Below the pieces are notes generated by a model. That model searched no databases. It was not told the origin of the DNA and worked only from the letters and a program-made list of their open reading frames with translations. 64,000 bases of DNA. Source: Candidatus Rhodoblastus alkanivorans (GTDB taxonomy: Bacteria; Pseudomonadota; Alphaproteobacteria; Rhizobiales; Beijerinckiaceae). The translations under genes and the position numbers were made by a program. Below are positions 27,157 through 60,956 of this stretch, one piece after another. The stretch's first letter is position 1. Every line of letters begins with the position of its first letter. Location of the stretch: contig NZ_JAIVFP010000001.1 of the NCBI RefSeq assembly GCF_022760755.1, positions 3,638,001 to 3,702,000 on the forward strand, in the 5' to 3' direction.

Positions 27157-28935
27157 TCAGAATTTCTTGATCGGGATGTTGTGTTTGGCGAGCGCGTAAG
27201 CGATCTGGCGCGGCGTCAGATTGAGGAGGCGCGCCGCCTTCGCCTGCACCCAGCCGGCCTTTTCCATTGCATCGATCAGACTGTCGCGATCCGGCGTTTT
27301 CGAAAGCGCGGCGCGCGCGCTCGCGCGTGACCGCAAGGCGTCGGCGCGCGAGGCCGCCGCAATCGCCGCGCGCCGCGCCACGCCCTCATCGAACGGGGCG
27401 GAATCGACCGCGGCCGGCGGCGCATGGCGCTCCCCGAACGCGTCCTGGGGCTTGGGCGCGGAAAAATCCTTCCAAAGGGTCGAGGACAGGCAGGCGCCGA
27501 CGGTGCAGGCGAAATCGCCCTCGACCAGGGCGTCGCCATGCGACAAGGTCGCTGTGCGGCGCACACAGTTTTCCAGCTCGCGGACGTTGCCGGGGAAGTT
27601 GCAACCCTGCAGCAACTGCACCGCCGCCGGGGTCAGGCGCTTGCGGGCGCCGTTTTCCTCGTTGAACCGGCGGAGGAATTCCTGCGCCAGCAGCGACACG
27701 TCCTCGGGCCGCTCACGCAAGGCCGGCAGCAGAATTGGCACGACATTGATGCGATAATAAAGATCGGCGCGGAAATCGCCGCGCTCGACGGCCGCCTCGA
27801 GATTCTTGTTGGTCGCGAAGACGAAACGGACATCGACCTTGACCGTCCGCGTTCCCCCGACCCGCTCGAATTCGCCCTCCTGCAGCACGCGCAGCAATTT
27901 GGCCTGGAAGGCGGGCGAGATTTCGCCGATCTCGTCAAGAAAAAGCGTGCCCTTGTCGGCCAGTTCGAACCGGCCCTTGCGCTGGCCGACAGCGCCGGTG
28001 AACGAACCTTTCTCATGTCCGAACAACTCGGATTCCAGCATGGATTCGGGCAGCGCCGCGCAGTTCAAACGGATGAAGGGGCCATCCTTGCGCGGCGAGA
28101 GGTCGTGGGCGGCGCGGGCGAACAATTCCTTGCCCGTGCCGGATTCCCCGCGCAGCAGAATGGTCGTATGGGTGCGCGCCACGACATTGATCTGGTCGAA
28201 CACCGCGCGGATGGCCCGGCTCGCGCCGACAATGCCGATCAAGGCCTGCTCGCCGCTTATTTCCGCGTGGCGCGGCGATTCCTTTTCGAGCCGGCGCTGG
28301 TCCTCCATCAGCCGCTCGCGATCGCGCGTGACGACATCATAGAGATGCAGGGTCTGACCGATCATATTGGCGATCATGCCGAGGAAGCGCGCGTCGTCGT
28401 CGGTCGCCACGCGATAGCTTGCCGTCGAAGGGCGGTCGATCGCGAGGAGCCCGATGACCTCGCCGCGATCGAAGATCGGGGCCGCGATCACCGCCTGGCG
28501 CGCGCCTGAAGGACCGGCCGGCCAGGCTGCGAAATCGGCGTCGCCGTCGACGTTTTCCACAATCACCGGCGCCCGCGTGGTGACGACGCGGCCGATGGCG
28601 CGCTCCGGCAGGCGGGCGCCGCCCGGCCGCGCCGAGAATCCGCCCAGGCCGACCACCGGCCTGACCTCGCCGAAAGAGTCGATCAAGGCGATGACCCCAC
28701 GGCGCAGATCGACGAAACTTGCGAGCAGGTCGAGAACCTGCGCCAGCACCTCGTCAAGCCGCCCAGGCGCCCCCAAAACTTTGGAAATCTCGTAAATGCC
28801 GCGCAAGGCGACATCCGCCCGGCACGACAGAGCGGGCATGGGGGGAAGAATCGTCGCGTCCGCCCTAGCCATTGCGGCGACGCTCCGGATCGCCCCGGCC
28901 TCCGTCACGCAGGCCGGTCCTGGACGCCGCTCCAT
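27157..28935 (-). CDS. nifA: NifA, sigma-54-dependent nif activator (copy 1)
   Basis: A 592-residue bacterial enhancer-binding protein. A GAF sensor domain spans about 40-195. The AAA+ domain follows with Walker A GESGTGKELFA, GSFTGA loop and Walker B TLFLDEIGEI. The interdomain linker carries the alphaproteobacterial oxygen-sensing cysteines C-x11-C-x19-C-x4-C, starting at GCNFPGNVRELENC. A C-terminal Fis-type HTH (QAKAARLLNLTPRQIAYAL) ends the protein. In-frame ATGs at 28872 and 28839 are alternative starts; 28872 has GGAG 11 nt upstream. It is downstream of nifW and possibly in the same transcript. A second nifA is at 59163-60956. Confidence 0.95.
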   Translation of the reverse strand: MERRPGPACVTEAGAIRSVAAMARADATILPPMPALSCRADVALRGIYEISKVLGAPGRLDEVLAQVLDLLASFVDLRRGVIALIDSFGEVRPVVGLGGFSARPGGARLPERAIGRVVTTRAPVIVENVDGDADFAAWPAGPSGARQAVIAAPIFDRGEVIGLLAIDRPSTASYRVATDDDARFLGMIANMIGQTLHLYDVVTRDRERLMEDQRRLEKESPRHAEISGEQALIGIVGASRAIRAVFDQINVVARTHTTILLRGESGTGKELFARAAHDLSPRKDGPFIRLNCAALPESMLESELFGHEKGSFTGAVGQRKGRFELADKGTLFLDEIGEISPAFQAKLLRVLQEGEFERVGGTRTVKVDVRFVFATNKNLEAAVERGDFRADLYYRINVVPILLPALRERPEDVSLLAQEFLRRFNEENGARKRLTPAAVQLLQGCNFPGNVRELENCVRRTATLSHGDALVEGDFACTVGACLSSTLWKDFSAPKPQDAFGERHAPPAAVDSAPFDEGVARRAAIAAASRADALRSRASARAALSKTPDRDSLIDAMEKAGWVQAKAARLLNLTPRQIAYALAKHNIPIKKF

Positions 28936-30469: not shown

Positions 30470-30790
30470 TCAGCCAAAACTCTTGCCGCAGGAGCAAGAA
30501 TGCGTGGCGTTGGGATTTTCGAATGTGAAGCCGGCGCCCTCGATGGCGACGACGAAGTCGATGGTGACGCCGGCAAGAAGCTCGCGGCTGGCGCTCTCGA
30601 CGAAAACCTTGACGCCGTCGCGCTCGACGACCTCGTCATTCTCTTCCGGAGTCTTCACCAGACCCATCATATATTTGTTGCCCGCACAGCCGCCCGTCTC
30701 GACTTTGAGACGCAAGCCCTGGACAGGCTCCGACGCCCCCTTGATGGCGTTGCGGACAGCGTTGATGGCGCTGTCGGTGAGTTGGATCAT
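30470..30790 (-). CDS. Nif-specific A-type Fe-S carrier (IscA/HesB)
   Basis: A 106-residue carrier with all three cluster cysteines: GGCAGNKY (Cys35) and the terminal CSCGKSF pair. The start IQLTDSAINAVRNAI is typical. It heads the operon that includes the Nfu-domain gene, cysE, nifW and probably nifA. ATG 30790 has GGAGG 7 nt upstream. It differs clearly from the atypical A-type protein in the nifB operon, which lacks one cysteine. Confidence 0.92.
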   Translation of the reverse strand: MIQLTDSAINAVRNAIKGASEPVQGLRLKVETGGCAGNKYMMGLVKTPEENDEVVERDGVKVFVESASRELLAGVTIDFVVAIEGAGFTFENPNATHSCSCGKSFG

Positions 30791-30831
30791 TGCTGGTCCT
30801 CCAGAATGCAAGACGTTTCGCTCAAAGGATT

Positions 30832-30936: not shown

Positions 30937-32634
30937 TCATGATGCAGCCGCTTGGTCGAGGCCGCGAAAGATCGCGCAACGCTTGAACACGCCGAGGTCC
31001 GGCGGCGTGTCGCGATGGCGACAATATTTCGAAACGAGCTTGGCCAGCCCCTTGATGTCGCGTCCGCTGGTCTGCGGGTAGAACTCGACCAGCGTCGAGA
31101 TCAGCTTTTCGTCGAGGCTCAAGGCGAATTGCTCCGACATCACCTTCCAGATGCGCGTACGCGCCTCGGCGTCCGGGGAATGAAAGCGGATCAGGGCGAT
31201 GCAGCGCGACACGATCGCCTCGTCGATGTCGTCGATCCGGTTTGTGGTGAGGAAGAGCAGGCCGTTGAAATATTCCAGCACGCGCAGGAACACGCCGACG
31301 ACCGCATTCATGGTCATGTCGTCCTGGCGACGCTTGATATAGACGTCGGCCTCGTCGATCAGCATCACCGCGCCCCAGCGCTGGGCGCGCAGCAGAGCCT
31401 CTTTCAGCGAGGTCTCCATCGCCGCGACATTGAGGCCGAGTTGGCCGGAATGAACGCGATAGAGCGGGCGCTTGACGATCTCGGAATAGACTTCGGCCGT
31501 CAAAGTCTTGCCGACCCCCGGCGGGCCGGCGCAGAGCACGGTCGTGCCGCCGGACTTGCCGGCGACGATATCGTCCATCAGCACATCCATCTCAGCGGTG
31601 AGAATGTCGATCAGATCGGTCTGCTCCTCGGGCAGAACCAGCTTCTGCTTGAGGTCCGGCTGATAAACATAGGGTTCGATGTCCTCGACATGAGCCCAGA
31701 CGTAATGATGGAGGTCGAGATGGAACATCAGGATGAAGGGATGGACCGGGATCTGACGGAACAGATCCTTGCCGATATTGGCCCGGGCCGCCGCGACCTC
31801 GTCCTCCTCCGCGTAGAGATTGCTCTTGGCCGCCTTGCGCAGATAATTGCCGAAAATGTCGCCGGTAAGTTCGAGCGTGAGCGCACGATTGGCCAGCAGA
31901 CTCTCGTCATTGACGAGCCGCGCCGGATTGCCGCCTGACGACAGAATGACCGTGTCCTTGCGCGTCCAATCATTGCTGCGATGGGAGGACGAGGGGTCCT
32001 CGGCGAAAAAGCCGAGCCCGCTGCCGGCGAATTGCGCGCCATAATGCGCGCGCCATTCGAAATAATTCTCGGCGTTGGCGTCATAGGCCGCGATCAGTTC
32101 CGGCGTCTCGCGCAGAAAGCCTTTTCCCGCGAAAATTTCCGCCACCGTCCTGCCCGCGATATCGCCGGCCATGATGCGAACCTGGACGGTCGTCAGCTCG
32201 CCTTTGGAATTGGCCTTGAGCTCGACGAAGATGCGCCCCGTCTCGTCGTTGGACGGCGGGGTGTAATCGATGCGCGCGACGACATAGGGCAACGGCCGCC
32301 CGCCGACATTCATGGCGAACAGCCAGCCGCGCTGGGCGCCGTCGATGAGGAAGCTCGCGATGGCCGGAACCACCGATTCGAGATCGTCGGCGGCGAAACG
32401 CGCTCCGCTTCCCTCGAAAGCGTCGCGCAAGGTCGCAAGCTGCGCGCGCGCGCTCTGCATCGGCGGGCCAGCCTCGCCATAGAGGTCATGCAGGCGATCG
32501 ACCTGCGCGCCGGACAGCTGCTGGAAAGGAATCTCGACCTTGTCGCCGAACAGCAATTGCGCCTTGAGGGATTCGAGCTCGGGAAAATCCGCAGCCAGAG
32601 CCTCGACATAAGGGCGCGCGATGTGAAGCTTCAT
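30937..32634 (-). CDS. AAA+ ATPase of unknown role in nif cluster
   Basis: A 565-residue protein. Residues 1-330 are a novel-looking N-terminal region. The AAA+ domain (about 360-500) has Walker A GPPGVGKTLTAE, Walker B VMLIDEADVY, sensor 1 FLTTNRIDDID and arginine-finger-like AIVSRCIALIRF. This is the domain type of remodelling ATPases such as CbbX-like activases. Its place among nif genes suggests conformational repair or maturation of a nitrogenase component, an inference. It is divergent from the gene at 32784, with which it may act. Confidence 0.85.
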   Translation of the reverse strand: MKLHIARPYVEALAADFPELESLKAQLLFGDKVEIPFQQLSGAQVDRLHDLYGEAGPPMQSARAQLATLRDAFEGSGARFAADDLESVVPAIASFLIDGAQRGWLFAMNVGGRPLPYVVARIDYTPPSNDETGRIFVELKANSKGELTTVQVRIMAGDIAGRTVAEIFAGKGFLRETPELIAAYDANAENYFEWRAHYGAQFAGSGLGFFAEDPSSSHRSNDWTRKDTVILSSGGNPARLVNDESLLANRALTLELTGDIFGNYLRKAAKSNLYAEEDEVAAARANIGKDLFRQIPVHPFILMFHLDLHHYVWAHVEDIEPYVYQPDLKQKLVLPEEQTDLIDILTAEMDVLMDDIVAGKSGGTTVLCAGPPGVGKTLTAEVYSEIVKRPLYRVHSGQLGLNVAAMETSLKEALLRAQRWGAVMLIDEADVYIKRRQDDMTMNAVVGVFLRVLEYFNGLLFLTTNRIDDIDEAIVSRCIALIRFHSPDAEARTRIWKVMSEQFALSLDEKLISTLVEFYPQTSGRDIKGLAKLVSKYCRHRDTPPDLGVFKRCAIFRGLDQAAAS

Positions 32635-32678
32635 GCCCTTGTCGCCTTCCGTTTACTTGGAGCCAATGGATTGCGACA

Positions 32679-32694
32679 AGCAGGGTTCAGGCCA
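32679..32694 (-). promoter_or_regulatory. Candidate sigma-54 promoter of the AAA+ gene
   Basis: Minus-strand TGGCCTGAACCCTGCT keeps GG-N10-GC, with mismatches in both boxes. No perfect NifA site accompanies it. Confidence 0.5.
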
Positions 32695-32715
32695 GACAAT
32701 TTGTGGCGCAAAAAG

Positions 32716-32731
32716 CGGCAGATCATTTGCA
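32716..32731 (+). promoter_or_regulatory. Candidate sigma-54 promoter of the divergent unknown gene
   Basis: CGGCAGATCATTTGCA keeps GG-N10-GC and the TTGCA -12 box, 53 nt before ATG 32784. A degenerate TGT-N10-TTA site is 60 nt upstream. Confidence 0.6.
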
Positions 32732-32783
32732 TGACGGGTTGGCGCGCGGAGACGCGAACAGTTTTTTCAAGCGGAGAATGACA

Positions 32784-33374
32784 ATGACATCGATCGAATC
32801 CACCGCCTTCGCCGGCCTGGAGAAGGAGAAGCGGCTGCTCAACGCGACCTTCAAGGGCCCGACCGGCAAGCCCGGCTATTTCGGCTTCCGCGGCGACTTC
32901 GCGCTGGAGTTCCAGCAGCAGCTCGCCGACGAGGCGCGCCCGCCGGAATTCAAGCTCGAACAGATTCTCTCAGTGGCCAAGGAAGGCGCGGGCAAAATCG
33001 AAATCCTGGTCGGCTATCTGCACGATTTCGCTTATTTCGACGCCTTCAAGAAAGTCGTCCTGCCGCTGCTGGCGCCGGAAGGCACCTATTTCATCTTCGT
33101 CAACAACATCGACCTGCTCGCCAAATATACCGTCGAGGTCGACGGCGTGACCTTCACCATCCTGCCCTGCGACGAATCCACGGTCTGGAAGGAAGTCAAC
33201 GACTTCTGCGGCCTCGATAAGAACGACTACAAGAAGCTCGACGCCGGGGGCAAGCTGCAATTCGTGCTCGACAAACTGGTCGAGGCCAAGGAAACCTTTG
33301 AAACGCTTTCCCTCTCCGACGCGCTGTCGCGCGCCGAGCCTGTCAAGAACCGCAACGAAAACCGCCCGGTCTGA
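32784..33374 (+). CDS. Unknown protein divergent from the AAA+ ATPase
   Basis: A 196-residue cytosolic protein. ATG 32784 is chosen because GGAG lies 7 nt upstream; ATG 32778 would be too close. Notable stretches: KPGYFGFRGDFALEFQQQL, GKIEILVGYLHDFAYFDAF, GTYFIFVNNIDLLAKYTV and a C-terminal helix rich in Lys/Glu. A mixed alpha/beta fold is likely, with two cysteines (ILPCDES, NDFCGL). I recognise no family. Its divergent layout with the AAA+ gene suggests an adaptor or substrate. Confidence 0.75.
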   Translation: MTSIESTAFAGLEKEKRLLNATFKGPTGKPGYFGFRGDFALEFQQQLADEARPPEFKLEQILSVAKEGAGKIEILVGYLHDFAYFDAFKKVVLPLLAPEGTYFIFVNNIDLLAKYTVEVDGVTFTILPCDESTVWKEVNDFCGLDKNDYKKLDAGGKLQFVLDKLVEAKETFETLSLSDALSRAEPVKNRNENRPV

Positions 33375-33558: not shown

Positions 33559-33978
33559 TCACGCCTCGACACTGCTGGCGTCCGCCTCGTCCTCGTCCTC
33601 GTCCTCCTCCTCGGCCAGGCTGACGCCAGTGATGCAGATGTCGCCGTCGATCACCTGCAATTCCACCGGCTTGAGATGGTCGTTCTTGCAGGGACCAGCC
33701 GAGCAGCGTCCGGTGCCCAGCTCGAACAGCGCGCCGTGCTTGCCGCACATCAGGCGCAGGCCGGTCGGATCGAGAAACTGCTCGCGCTCCCAATCGAGGC
33801 GCGCGCCGTGATGCGGGCAGGAATTGACATAGCCAAAAACCTGCTTGCCCCAGCGCACCACCACGATCGGGAAATTCTTCTCCTCGCCCGCCTCATCGAG
33901 GACGGCGAGATCGAATCCCTGCGCGCGCTGGCTCTGAATATCGTCGAGGGCGCAGATCACATAAGCGACATCGGACAT
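33559..33978 (-). CDS. Rieske [2Fe-2S] ferredoxin-like protein
   Basis: A 139-residue protein with both Rieske boxes: CPHHGARL and CGKHGALF (C-x-H...C-x2-H style ligands). It ends in an acidic Glu/Asp tail (EEEDEDEDEADAS). Small soluble Rieske proteins accompany oxygenases but also appear in nif clusters as electron carriers. It shares strand with, and follows by 24 nt, the flavoprotein gene, so it may pass electrons to or from it. A paralog is at 56373-56801. Confidence 0.88.
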   Translation of the reverse strand: MSDVAYVICALDDIQSQRAQGFDLAVLDEAGEEKNFPIVVVRWGKQVFGYVNSCPHHGARLDWEREQFLDPTGLRLMCGKHGALFELGTGRCSAGPCKNDHLKPVELQVIDGDICITGVSLAEEEDEDEDEADASSVEA

Positions 33979-34002
33979 AAGTTTCGCTACTCCTTGCATG
34001 AT

Positions 34003-35601
34003 TCAGGCGGCGGCGCCGTCCTGCGCCTCGACTTCGCCGAGGAAACGGGTGTTCAGCGCCAGTGAAAATTCGGTCCAGGCGGCGGCGACGTCGCGCATGA
34101 TCACCTGAACATATTCCCGCGCAAGCCTATGTTCGTCGGGAAAATTCGACAAAGCGCAGGACGTGGCGTTGAATGCCGCGACATCGTCGAAAAACTGCTT
34201 CAGCACGCCGCCGAACGGTTCTTGCGCCAGCGGCGTCAAGGCGCTGCGGCCCTTCTCGACCGCGACGCCGCGCACATCGAAGGGCAGACTTTCGACCCTG
34301 GCGAGAGCCTGGGCGAAAAAGGCCTCGACAGAGCCGAGCATCGCGCGCTGGGTCAATTGGTCACGCGCCTGGTTCGCAAGACTGGCGTTGAGCCGGCGGC
34401 GGTAGTCGTCCAGAAGTCCTGGCGCCTTGCGCTCGACCCAGGCCGTAAAGCGGCGCAGGCTGGCGTCATTCGCATTTTCGCCCTGGCGCAGCGCCGCATC
34501 GTCCTCGGGGGCCGTGTCGCGAAAAATGTCGCGCGCGATGCGCTGGGCCGCCTCCAGCGCGCCTTCCATATAGCCAGCCTGGATCGATCCCGTCTCCGAG
34601 CCGCCAAGATGTAGACGCCCCTGCCACAACGCGCGCCGCAGCAGCGGATTGGCGGCTGAGCGCTGCTCCTCGCGGCCGCGCTCGCGGTCGAGCGCACTGC
34701 AGGTTTCGGCATCCTTGGCCCAGTCCTGATAGAAATGCTCGCGGCCATCGGGCAGGCCGCCGAACACCTGTTCGAACTGGCTTTGCATCAGCATGGGCAG
34801 GCCGTCGCGAAAGGCCTCGCGCAATTCCGGGCCCATGGCCAAAAAGCCGCCAAGCGCGGCTTCGCCGCCGCGCGGATCGCTGGCGTCGAAAATCTCGTCG
34901 AACACCGCCTGTTCGTGGCTGACGAAGGCGTTCCCGGAATGCCCCGCCTCGCGCCATGCCGGCGCGGCGAAAGTCGTCACCGCCTTGGCCTGCGCCGCCA
35001 TCCAGGTCGGCGCGTCGCGCATGACCTGGCGCATCGACCCGTCGAGACCCGGCGCGAAGATGATGCGCTCCTCGGCAAGACGCGGCGGCAACGCCAAAAC
35101 GACGCGATCCGCCTCGACCACGCGGGTCGCGCCCGCTTCATTGATCGTGAGCACGACATGATCGTCGCCGTCGCGGATGCCCCTGATCTGGCAATCGAGA
35201 TGAAGCCGCTCCTGCGGCAGCAATCGGCGCAAGGCTTCGACTATTTTCTGGGCGCCGCCGACCACGCGCCGGGCGCCGCCATGCACGCCGCCCGCGACAT
35301 CGATCCGTTCCGGCGTGGCGTCCGCCTCGTTCAGCCGCAGCACGGCGCCGTCGTCGAACTGGGCGAAGCTCTCCAGGCCCAGTTCGCCGAGCAGCGCCGT
35401 CAGCAGCGGCTGGCGGTCCGGCCAGAACCATGACGCGCCGAGATCGACCGCGTGGCCCGACAATTTGCAATCGACCGACAGGATGCGCCCGCCCCAGCGT
35501 TGACGGGCCTCGAACAGTTCGAAATCCCGCCCCCGCCGCGCCAATTGCGCCGCAAGGGCCAAGCCGCACAAGCCGCCGCCGACGATCGCCGTTTCCACCA
35601 T
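34003..35601 (-). CDS. FAD-dependent amine oxidase-like flavoprotein
   Basis: A 532-residue flavoprotein with the ADP-binding motif AIVGGGLCGLALAAQL at the N-terminus, the FELFEARQRWGGRILS loop and the second FAD region GSETGSIQAGYMEGALEA (about 350). This is the monoamine/polyamine oxidase superfamily. Its substrate is unknown. It precedes the Rieske gene in a probable two-gene operon within the nif island. ATG 35601 is chosen; the frame reaches 35637 with less typical residues. Confidence 0.85.
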   Translation of the reverse strand: MVETAIVGGGLCGLALAAQLARRGRDFELFEARQRWGGRILSVDCKLSGHAVDLGASWFWPDRQPLLTALLGELGLESFAQFDDGAVLRLNEADATPERIDVAGGVHGGARRVVGGAQKIVEALRRLLPQERLHLDCQIRGIRDGDDHVVLTINEAGATRVVEADRVVLALPPRLAEERIIFAPGLDGSMRQVMRDAPTWMAAQAKAVTTFAAPAWREAGHSGNAFVSHEQAVFDEIFDASDPRGGEAALGGFLAMGPELREAFRDGLPMLMQSQFEQVFGGLPDGREHFYQDWAKDAETCSALDRERGREEQRSAANPLLRRALWQGRLHLGGSETGSIQAGYMEGALEAAQRIARDIFRDTAPEDDAALRQGENANDASLRRFTAWVERKAPGLLDDYRRRLNASLANQARDQLTQRAMLGSVEAFFAQALARVESLPFDVRGVAVEKGRSALTPLAQEPFGGVLKQFFDDVAAFNATSCALSNFPDEHRLAREYVQVIMRDVAAAWTEFSLALNTRFLGEVEAQDGAAA

Positions 35602-35742
35602 GTCGTCCTCCGTCTGGTCTCCGCGCGTCCCAAGCAAGATTCGCGCAGATTTTCCGACACCCTGACAAAAGGCGACAACTTAGTCGCGATGCCGACGCTC
35701 GCGCCGCTGTTCCCGACAGGCCGCGTCCGGTAACACCGAGAT

Positions 35743-58965: not shown

Positions 58966-59162
58966 AATATGGGCGGTAGCGTCTGGACCTGCTTGTTTTT
59001 TGATGTTTCAAAGGCGACATCGCAGGCTTATTTTGAATCGACAAAGGCAAAGCAGGTGGCTGGACCTGCGCGACGCGAACGTGGCGCCTTCCGTTCGCGT
59101 AATGTGTGCCGTTTGCGTGGAGAAGACGATCTTTCGGGCTGCGCCAATTGATCGGGAGCCGC

Positions 59163-60956
<1,794 letters not shown>

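Follow-up and report, generated by a model that had tools for sequence, protein, structure and literature searches.

Two divergently oriented genes lie within a nitrogen fixation (nif) gene cluster of Candidatus Rhodoblastus alkanivorans, a purple bacterium with a genome of 4.35 Mb, of which a stretch of 64,000 nucleotides was analyzed (contig NZ_JAIVFP010000001.1, positions 3,638,001 to 3,702,000; hereafter the window). The first gene, located on the minus strand (30937..32634), encodes a protein of 565 amino acids with an N-terminal region without assignment (residues 1-331) and a classical AAA domain (residues ~362-560), hereafter the AAA protein; the second one, located on the plus strand (32784..33374), encodes a protein of 196 amino acids, hereafter P2. 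Lengths, positions and divergent orientation agree with the initial annotation of this DNA, and both open reading frames (ORFs) show a third-position GC content of the coding type. Within the nif cluster, profile matches confirmed nifA, nifQ and the gene of a nif-specific ferredoxin, and a sequence search confirmed nifH; what we take to be nifD-K-E-N-X, nifB, nifW, nifT, nifZ and others, recognized from their sequences, served as queries. As judged from sequence comparison, the AAA protein is a member of a diazotroph-linked clade of an uncharacterized classical AAA family, and there is strong support for its connection with nitrogen fixation.

Domain architecture and relatives of the AAA protein

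The AAA protein matches PF00004 over residues 366-484 (E 2.2e-16; 60.9 bits versus a gathering score of 21.2), and the core belongs to the classical p97/VCP type. It carries the Walker A motif GPPGVGKT, the Walker B motif LIDEAD, the sensor-1 residue N465 and the arginine finger R477, and residues K376, T377, D427, E428, N465 and R477 are invariant across the 64 aligned rows of the family. The initial annotation had described an AAA+ protein with a large unfamiliar N-terminal region, and this holds: residues 1-331 matched no Pfam family at E <= 1 and, using a profile of 24 rows, no PDB chain sequence at E <= 10; a fold search with the whole model effectively covered mainly the AAA part. In contrast to p97/Cdc48-type ATPases, the protein has one AAA domain only, the unmatched N-terminal region and no aromatic pore-loop residue, as N402-V403-A404 take the place of W-V-G in an alignment with a VCP-like ATPase. 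In the absence of this aromatic residue, levering of a client seems more likely than threading. The HExxH zinc-protease motif was found in none of the 64 rows, and an FtsH-like protease identity was rejected on this ground. A role in defense was likewise not adopted, as the matches to IetA, TRIP13 and other AAA models were partial (best E 8e-14, in the core). A histidine-rich stretch (residues 296-326) is located just N-terminal of the AAA core, with H298, H309 and H315 conserved without exception in the 64 rows, including that of a phage, and possibly represents a metal or active-site feature.

In a maximum-likelihood tree of these 64 rows, the window protein and 55 others form the nif-linked clade, which has a support of 100/100 and a long stem, and 13 positions are invariant within the clade and different in all eight rows outside it. 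The latter derive from five plasmids, one phage and two genomes (G461 and G467) with full-length relatives and without nifH, the only two sister genomes tested; the tree program warned of long branches among these outgroup rows. Sister proteins share 34-42% identity with the AAA protein for the plasmid rows listed and around 36% for those of jumbo phages, and at least one of the sister-plasmid hosts, Paraburkholderia phymatum, is a diazotroph. The only plasmid row inside the clade is that of Methylococcus EFPC2 (68.6% identity), in which the AAA gene is surrounded by nifL, isc genes, nifV and nifW in an isc-nifV-nifW-grxD-bolA run. The family profile phrog_29662 matches residues 72-559 of the AAA protein over its positions 80-545 of 548 (E 7.3e-105). 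The relatives in this family, gp276 of the Bacillus jumbo phage PBS1, named ATP-dependent metalloprotease, and plasmid-encoded ATP-binding proteins, are near full-length homologs, which share the layout and the three invariant histidines in the aligned rows, but fall outside the nif clade. The protease name given to PBS1 gp276 (L179) and plasmid relatives appears unsupported, since the aligned rows lack HExxH. An esterase-type gene adjoins the relative in a Variovorax plasmid and in G461.

Co-occurrence with nitrogen fixation genes

The distribution of the AAA gene was analyzed in a family sample of 199 genomes, a phylum sample of 329 genomes and a set of named genomes. In the family sample, 36 genomes encode the AAA protein, 40 have a nifH gene above the curated cut-off and 33 have both; thus, the gene is present in 33/40 nifH genomes versus 3/159 others. 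The Fisher values calculated for the co-occurrence take no account of phylogeny. The three genomes with the AAA gene and without a called nifH differ from each other: nifD is complete and nifH is interrupted by a contig end in G165, nifD is absent and the nif contig stops past nifB in G075, and G083 is 78% complete with weak nifD-like matches only. Conversely, seven genomes with nifH lack the AAA gene (G003, G010, G027, G127, G136, G168 and G183), and the contig of G010 ends beside P2. Strong matches were found in five genomes of the phylum sample, four intact ones with nifH and a broken one without it (G286), and weak matches in two genomes, both without nifH. The named set comprised alpha-, beta- and gammaproteobacteria; here 50 of 80 loci, themselves the best 80 of 325 found, were tested after having been picked for spread before the result was seen. 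In this set, nifH is present in 43/50 genomes (41 above the cut-off), as compared to 36/329 genomes of the phylum sample; the remaining seven (with loci L049, L058, L069, L070, L079, L099 and L120) are, by their titles, five metagenome-assembled genomes (MAGs) and two isolate drafts. Thus, the AAA gene nearly implies nif, and nif does not imply the AAA gene. A preponderance of non-diazotrophs among the homologs, which the initial annotation had named as a point against its idea, is not seen in the clade and may exist among the distant sisters.

Within the flanks fetched for the 80 loci (up to 10 kb, often shortened by contig ends), a nif-gene match was detected at 30/80 loci. Neighbors in several lineages point toward the iron-sulfur (Fe-S) or iron-molybdenum cofactor (FeMo-co) supply side, as in the isc-nifV-nifW-grxD-bolA run of Methylococcus and in G294, where a gene for a FeMo-co-binding domain directly follows the AAA gene. 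In G286 (L169:2835-4534), the next genes after the broken AAA reading frame are a FeMo-co-binding-domain-like gene and a glutathione S-transferase (GST) gene, which possibly reflects decay after loss of nif.

The intergenic region and P2

The AAA and P2 genes are separated by 149 bases, which contain one good sigma-54-type (-24/-12) site in each direction. The site for the AAA gene (32679..32695, minus strand) reads CTGGCCTGAACCCTGCT and that for P2 (32715..32731, plus strand) reads GCGGCAGATCATTTGCA; both have the GG-N10-GC pattern for which candidates had been announced in the initial annotation. A weaker second site in the P2 direction (7/13) is also present, and translation of P2 may start at the ATG at 32784, which is the aligned start of the relatives, or at an in-frame ATG at 32778. 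Sites with a score of at least 9/13 in both directions were found in 13/13 related gaps, including those of Azorhizobium and other genera, where dinucleotide shuffles gave expectations of 1.5 and 1.1; these gaps are not independent, since eight of the 13 come from a single genus. A fourteenth gap (L052, 738 bases) has sites both ways and was excluded from this test. The data as a whole support the notion that AAA and P2 are two nif accessory genes, each preceded by a sigma-54-type site.

P2 had been described as a protein of no known family, and this was borne out: the best Pfam match, DUF3862, reached 16.3 bits versus a cut-off of 25, no Pfam family scored above its cut-off, and searches of NCBIfam, PHROG and PADLOC gave no match at E <= 0.1. 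The structure of P2 is predicted with confidence (predicted local distance difference test, pLDDT, of 92), and no convincing match of this model to a solved or viral structure was found. Four McrC chains were among the first six Foldseek rows; their scores are weak (E 0.1-0.41, template modeling (TM) scores of 0.21-0.28 on the query), and P2 was not treated as an McrC-like partner of the AAA protein. P2 carries a conserved C-terminal tail, NRNENRPV, which is lacking in two paralogs aligned. One paralog of 175 amino acids is encoded in the same genome outside the nif cluster, beside a tpiA-like gene (G000:C1:3440169-3440696; L152:9670-10197), and similar paralogs occur in many P2 genomes.

Among 52 family genomes tested, P2 is present in 38: in 36/36 genomes with the AAA gene (in G181 by a weak match only), in 2/7 nifH genomes without it and in 0/9 genomes with neither. 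In the phylum sample, the P2 profile matched 12/329 genomes; each of these has nifH, 8/12 lack the AAA gene, and six of the 12 matches were distant (64-78 bits). P2 was also found in 43/50 named AAA genomes, five of them by distant matches. For the majority of genomes, though not for every one, the distribution supports a nested arrangement in which carriers of the AAA gene are a subset of those of P2, and these a subset of those of nif. However, the AAA gene occurs without P2 in four nifH genomes (G562, G563, G568 and G574; three are MAGs), P2 matching its profile to the last position occurs in five genomes without the AAA gene (G027, G255, G344, G412 and G458), and the two genes are far apart in many genomes. 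AAA and P2 are therefore not an obligate pair, which weakens the initial description of the two as such. Since full-profile P2 occurs in genomes without the AAA gene, the idea that the P2 tail is a recognition tag for the AAA protein was rejected as a simple rule.

P2 is often found close to nifH or to a globin gene. In 15 of the 43 named genomes, P2 starts less than 2.4 kb from nifH; the distance is below 40 kb in eight more, and in 20 P2 is farther away or on another contig. In a set of 51 distinct P2-family loci, two of which are paralogs, P2 overlaps or lies at most 40 bases from a globin gene at 18/51 loci, is divergent from the AAA gene at 15/51 and has DraT as next gene at 3/51; profile checks of neighbors confirmed two globins (PF01152) and two DraT proteins (PF07357). 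A globin gene lies directly 5' of P2 or overlaps it at L153, L162, L090, L067, L103-L105 and L182, and at L090, L067 and L182, P2 is placed between the globin gene and DraT, with nifH on the far side of the globin gene. In Azotobacter chroococcum, a distant P2 gene is divergent from nifH and lies behind an ORF that we take to be SIR2-like. A role of P2 in the DraT/DraG switch was dropped, since DraT is missing from 23/37 family P2 genomes and P2 from many genomes with DraT.

Possible functions of AAA and P2

The function of the AAA protein would be explained most economically by ATP-driven remodeling of a nitrogenase-maturation client without proteolysis. The protein would act as a hexameric, non-proteolytic remodeler, whose family-specific N-terminal domain might hold the client, for instance an Fe-S or FeMo-co carrier or assembly intermediate of the NifB/NifEN/NifX type, or NifH or NifDK, and which would drive a conformational change, disassembly or cofactor hand-over of this client. 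P2, preceded by a sigma-54-type site of its own and often encoded close to nifH or a globin gene, would be a separate accessory factor linked to nif; it probably protects or tunes nitrogenase and does not serve the AAA protein as an obligate adaptor. We give an even chance to this combined reading of the sequences, a non-proteolytic remodeler for nitrogenase maturation or repair plus a separate nitrogenase-linked factor. Remodeling of nitrogenase proteins by the AAA protein, as suggested in the initial annotation, is plausible in this respect. It is tempting to speculate further that a non-threading AAA ring is dedicated to the remodeling of nitrogenase or of its cofactor scaffold, as a nitrogenase activase or repair machine, and that P2 contributes to this process at the Fe protein; such a machine would resemble the non-threading Rubisco activases in function and would have evolved from a different AAA family, and we regard this as possible though doubtful.

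Several observations weigh against the combined reading. In the phylum sample, 32 of the 36 nifH genomes lack the AAA gene, which must therefore be dispensable for nitrogen fixation in general. No nif gene is found in the fetched flanks at 50 of the best 80 AAA loci, for example in Azotobacter, Derxia and Beijerinckia, and a genome of the same genus (G007; L037, ~9.7-10.0 kb) has kept its nif genes with an AAA gene reduced to remnants that cover residues 6-76 and 524-564. DraT, found in 40 of the 77 genomes searched for it, fails to track P2. A site with a score of at least 11 lies upstream of the AAA gene at 10/79 loci versus 44/926 control genes, a modest excess. Furthermore, the exact NifA upstream site (TGT-N10-ACA) is absent from the gap in the window and present in 2/14 gaps; the control by NifA claimed in the initial annotation is thus suggested by the sigma-54-type sites and the location in the nif cluster, and not by an exact NifA site.

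The AAA protein might instead have a general role in stress or Fe-S repair and merely travel with diazotrophs. Homologs of GST, FAD amine-oxidase-like proteins and nitroreductases among the called genes of the 80 AAA loci (at 30, 22 and 22 loci, respectively), the full-length relatives in the two genomes without nifH and the esterase-type neighbor in G461 and the Variovorax plasmid are in line with this; however, the nif-linked distribution of the clade and the sigma-54-type sites make it an unlikely explanation.

The initial annotation had drawn an analogy to CbbX-type activases. In a reading of this kind, the AAA protein would be a CbbX-like nitrogenase activase with P2 as adaptor or client, and its pore would take in the NRNENRPV tail of P2 or a tail of one of the proteins NifDK, NifEN and NifH. 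As with CbbX, the AAA protein is encoded beside the genes of the enzyme that it may serve, P2 accompanies it in all 36 family genomes and 43/50 named ones, and the P2 tail is conserved and lacking in the paralogs. Moreover, CbbQO-type and plant Rubisco activases remodel without a canonical pore loop (PMC5385338). The same text describes CbbX as a ~35-kDa protein whose N-terminal extension is compact and helical and whose remodeling depends on a canonical Tyr/Ile/Gly pore loop (PMC5385338). In contrast, the window protein has 565 residues, a large region outside the AAA core (1-331), an N-V-A pore loop and a core of p97/VCP type, which weakens the analogy; none of the 20 rows obtained from NCBIfam at E <= 0.1 was a cbbX model, a library that was not checked for holding one. 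Together with the frequent separation of the two genes and the occurrence of each without the other, the differences in pore loop, size and core render the CbbX-like mechanism decidedly unlikely.

The least probable alternative is that the AAA protein replaces a ClpX2-type proteostasis branch and unfolds NifB/NifEN-type proteins or hands them to a separate protease: clpX2 of Azotobacter vinelandii, which encodes an AAA+ protein and has nifV/nifW-type genes as neighbors within a nif cluster, ends the iscA-nifUSV-cysE-nifWZM operon, and the Methylococcus AAA gene lies in a comparable run, but the family lacks the aromatic threading residue and HExxH and has a p97/VCP-type core. By the title of a 2011 study by Martinez-Noel, ClpX2 reportedly regulates NifB and NifEN levels. 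ClpX belongs to a different AAA+ group.

The assembly and upkeep of nitrogenase in aerobes are governed by accessory factors, which are a bottleneck for the transfer of nitrogen fixation to other hosts. Two conserved nif-linked families, for none of which an assigned function was found, are therefore concrete new candidates for nitrogenase helpers, the AAA protein being a predicted remodeler according to its motifs. Both proteins are encoded in Methylococcus capsulatus and Azotobacter chroococcum, P2 in a distant form in the latter, and can therefore be tested in tractable organisms. Neither family is named in the accessible parts of the literature found (PMC3916325, PMC9866876, PMC5715403, PMC3912193 and PMC5385338). 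As a lead, Azoarcus azo3791, described in PMC3916325 as a conserved hypothetical ATPase with RpoN and NifA sites and NifA-regulated expression, could be the same protein as AAA.

Further genes flank the divergent pair. A Rieske-type 2Fe-2S protein (33559..33999, minus strand; PF00355) is encoded convergently to P2 and is followed by an FAD amine-oxidase-like protein (34003..35637, minus strand; PF01593). The AAA gene is adjoined on the same strand by a presumably IscA-like gene (30470..30811), labeled from its sequence, and this order is kept in relatives. The nifA gene (27157..28935, minus strand) matches TIGR01817 with 671.8 bits versus a cut-off of 528.85, and a second NifA-like ORF of 616 amino acids, judged by eye, is located at 59106-60956 of the window.
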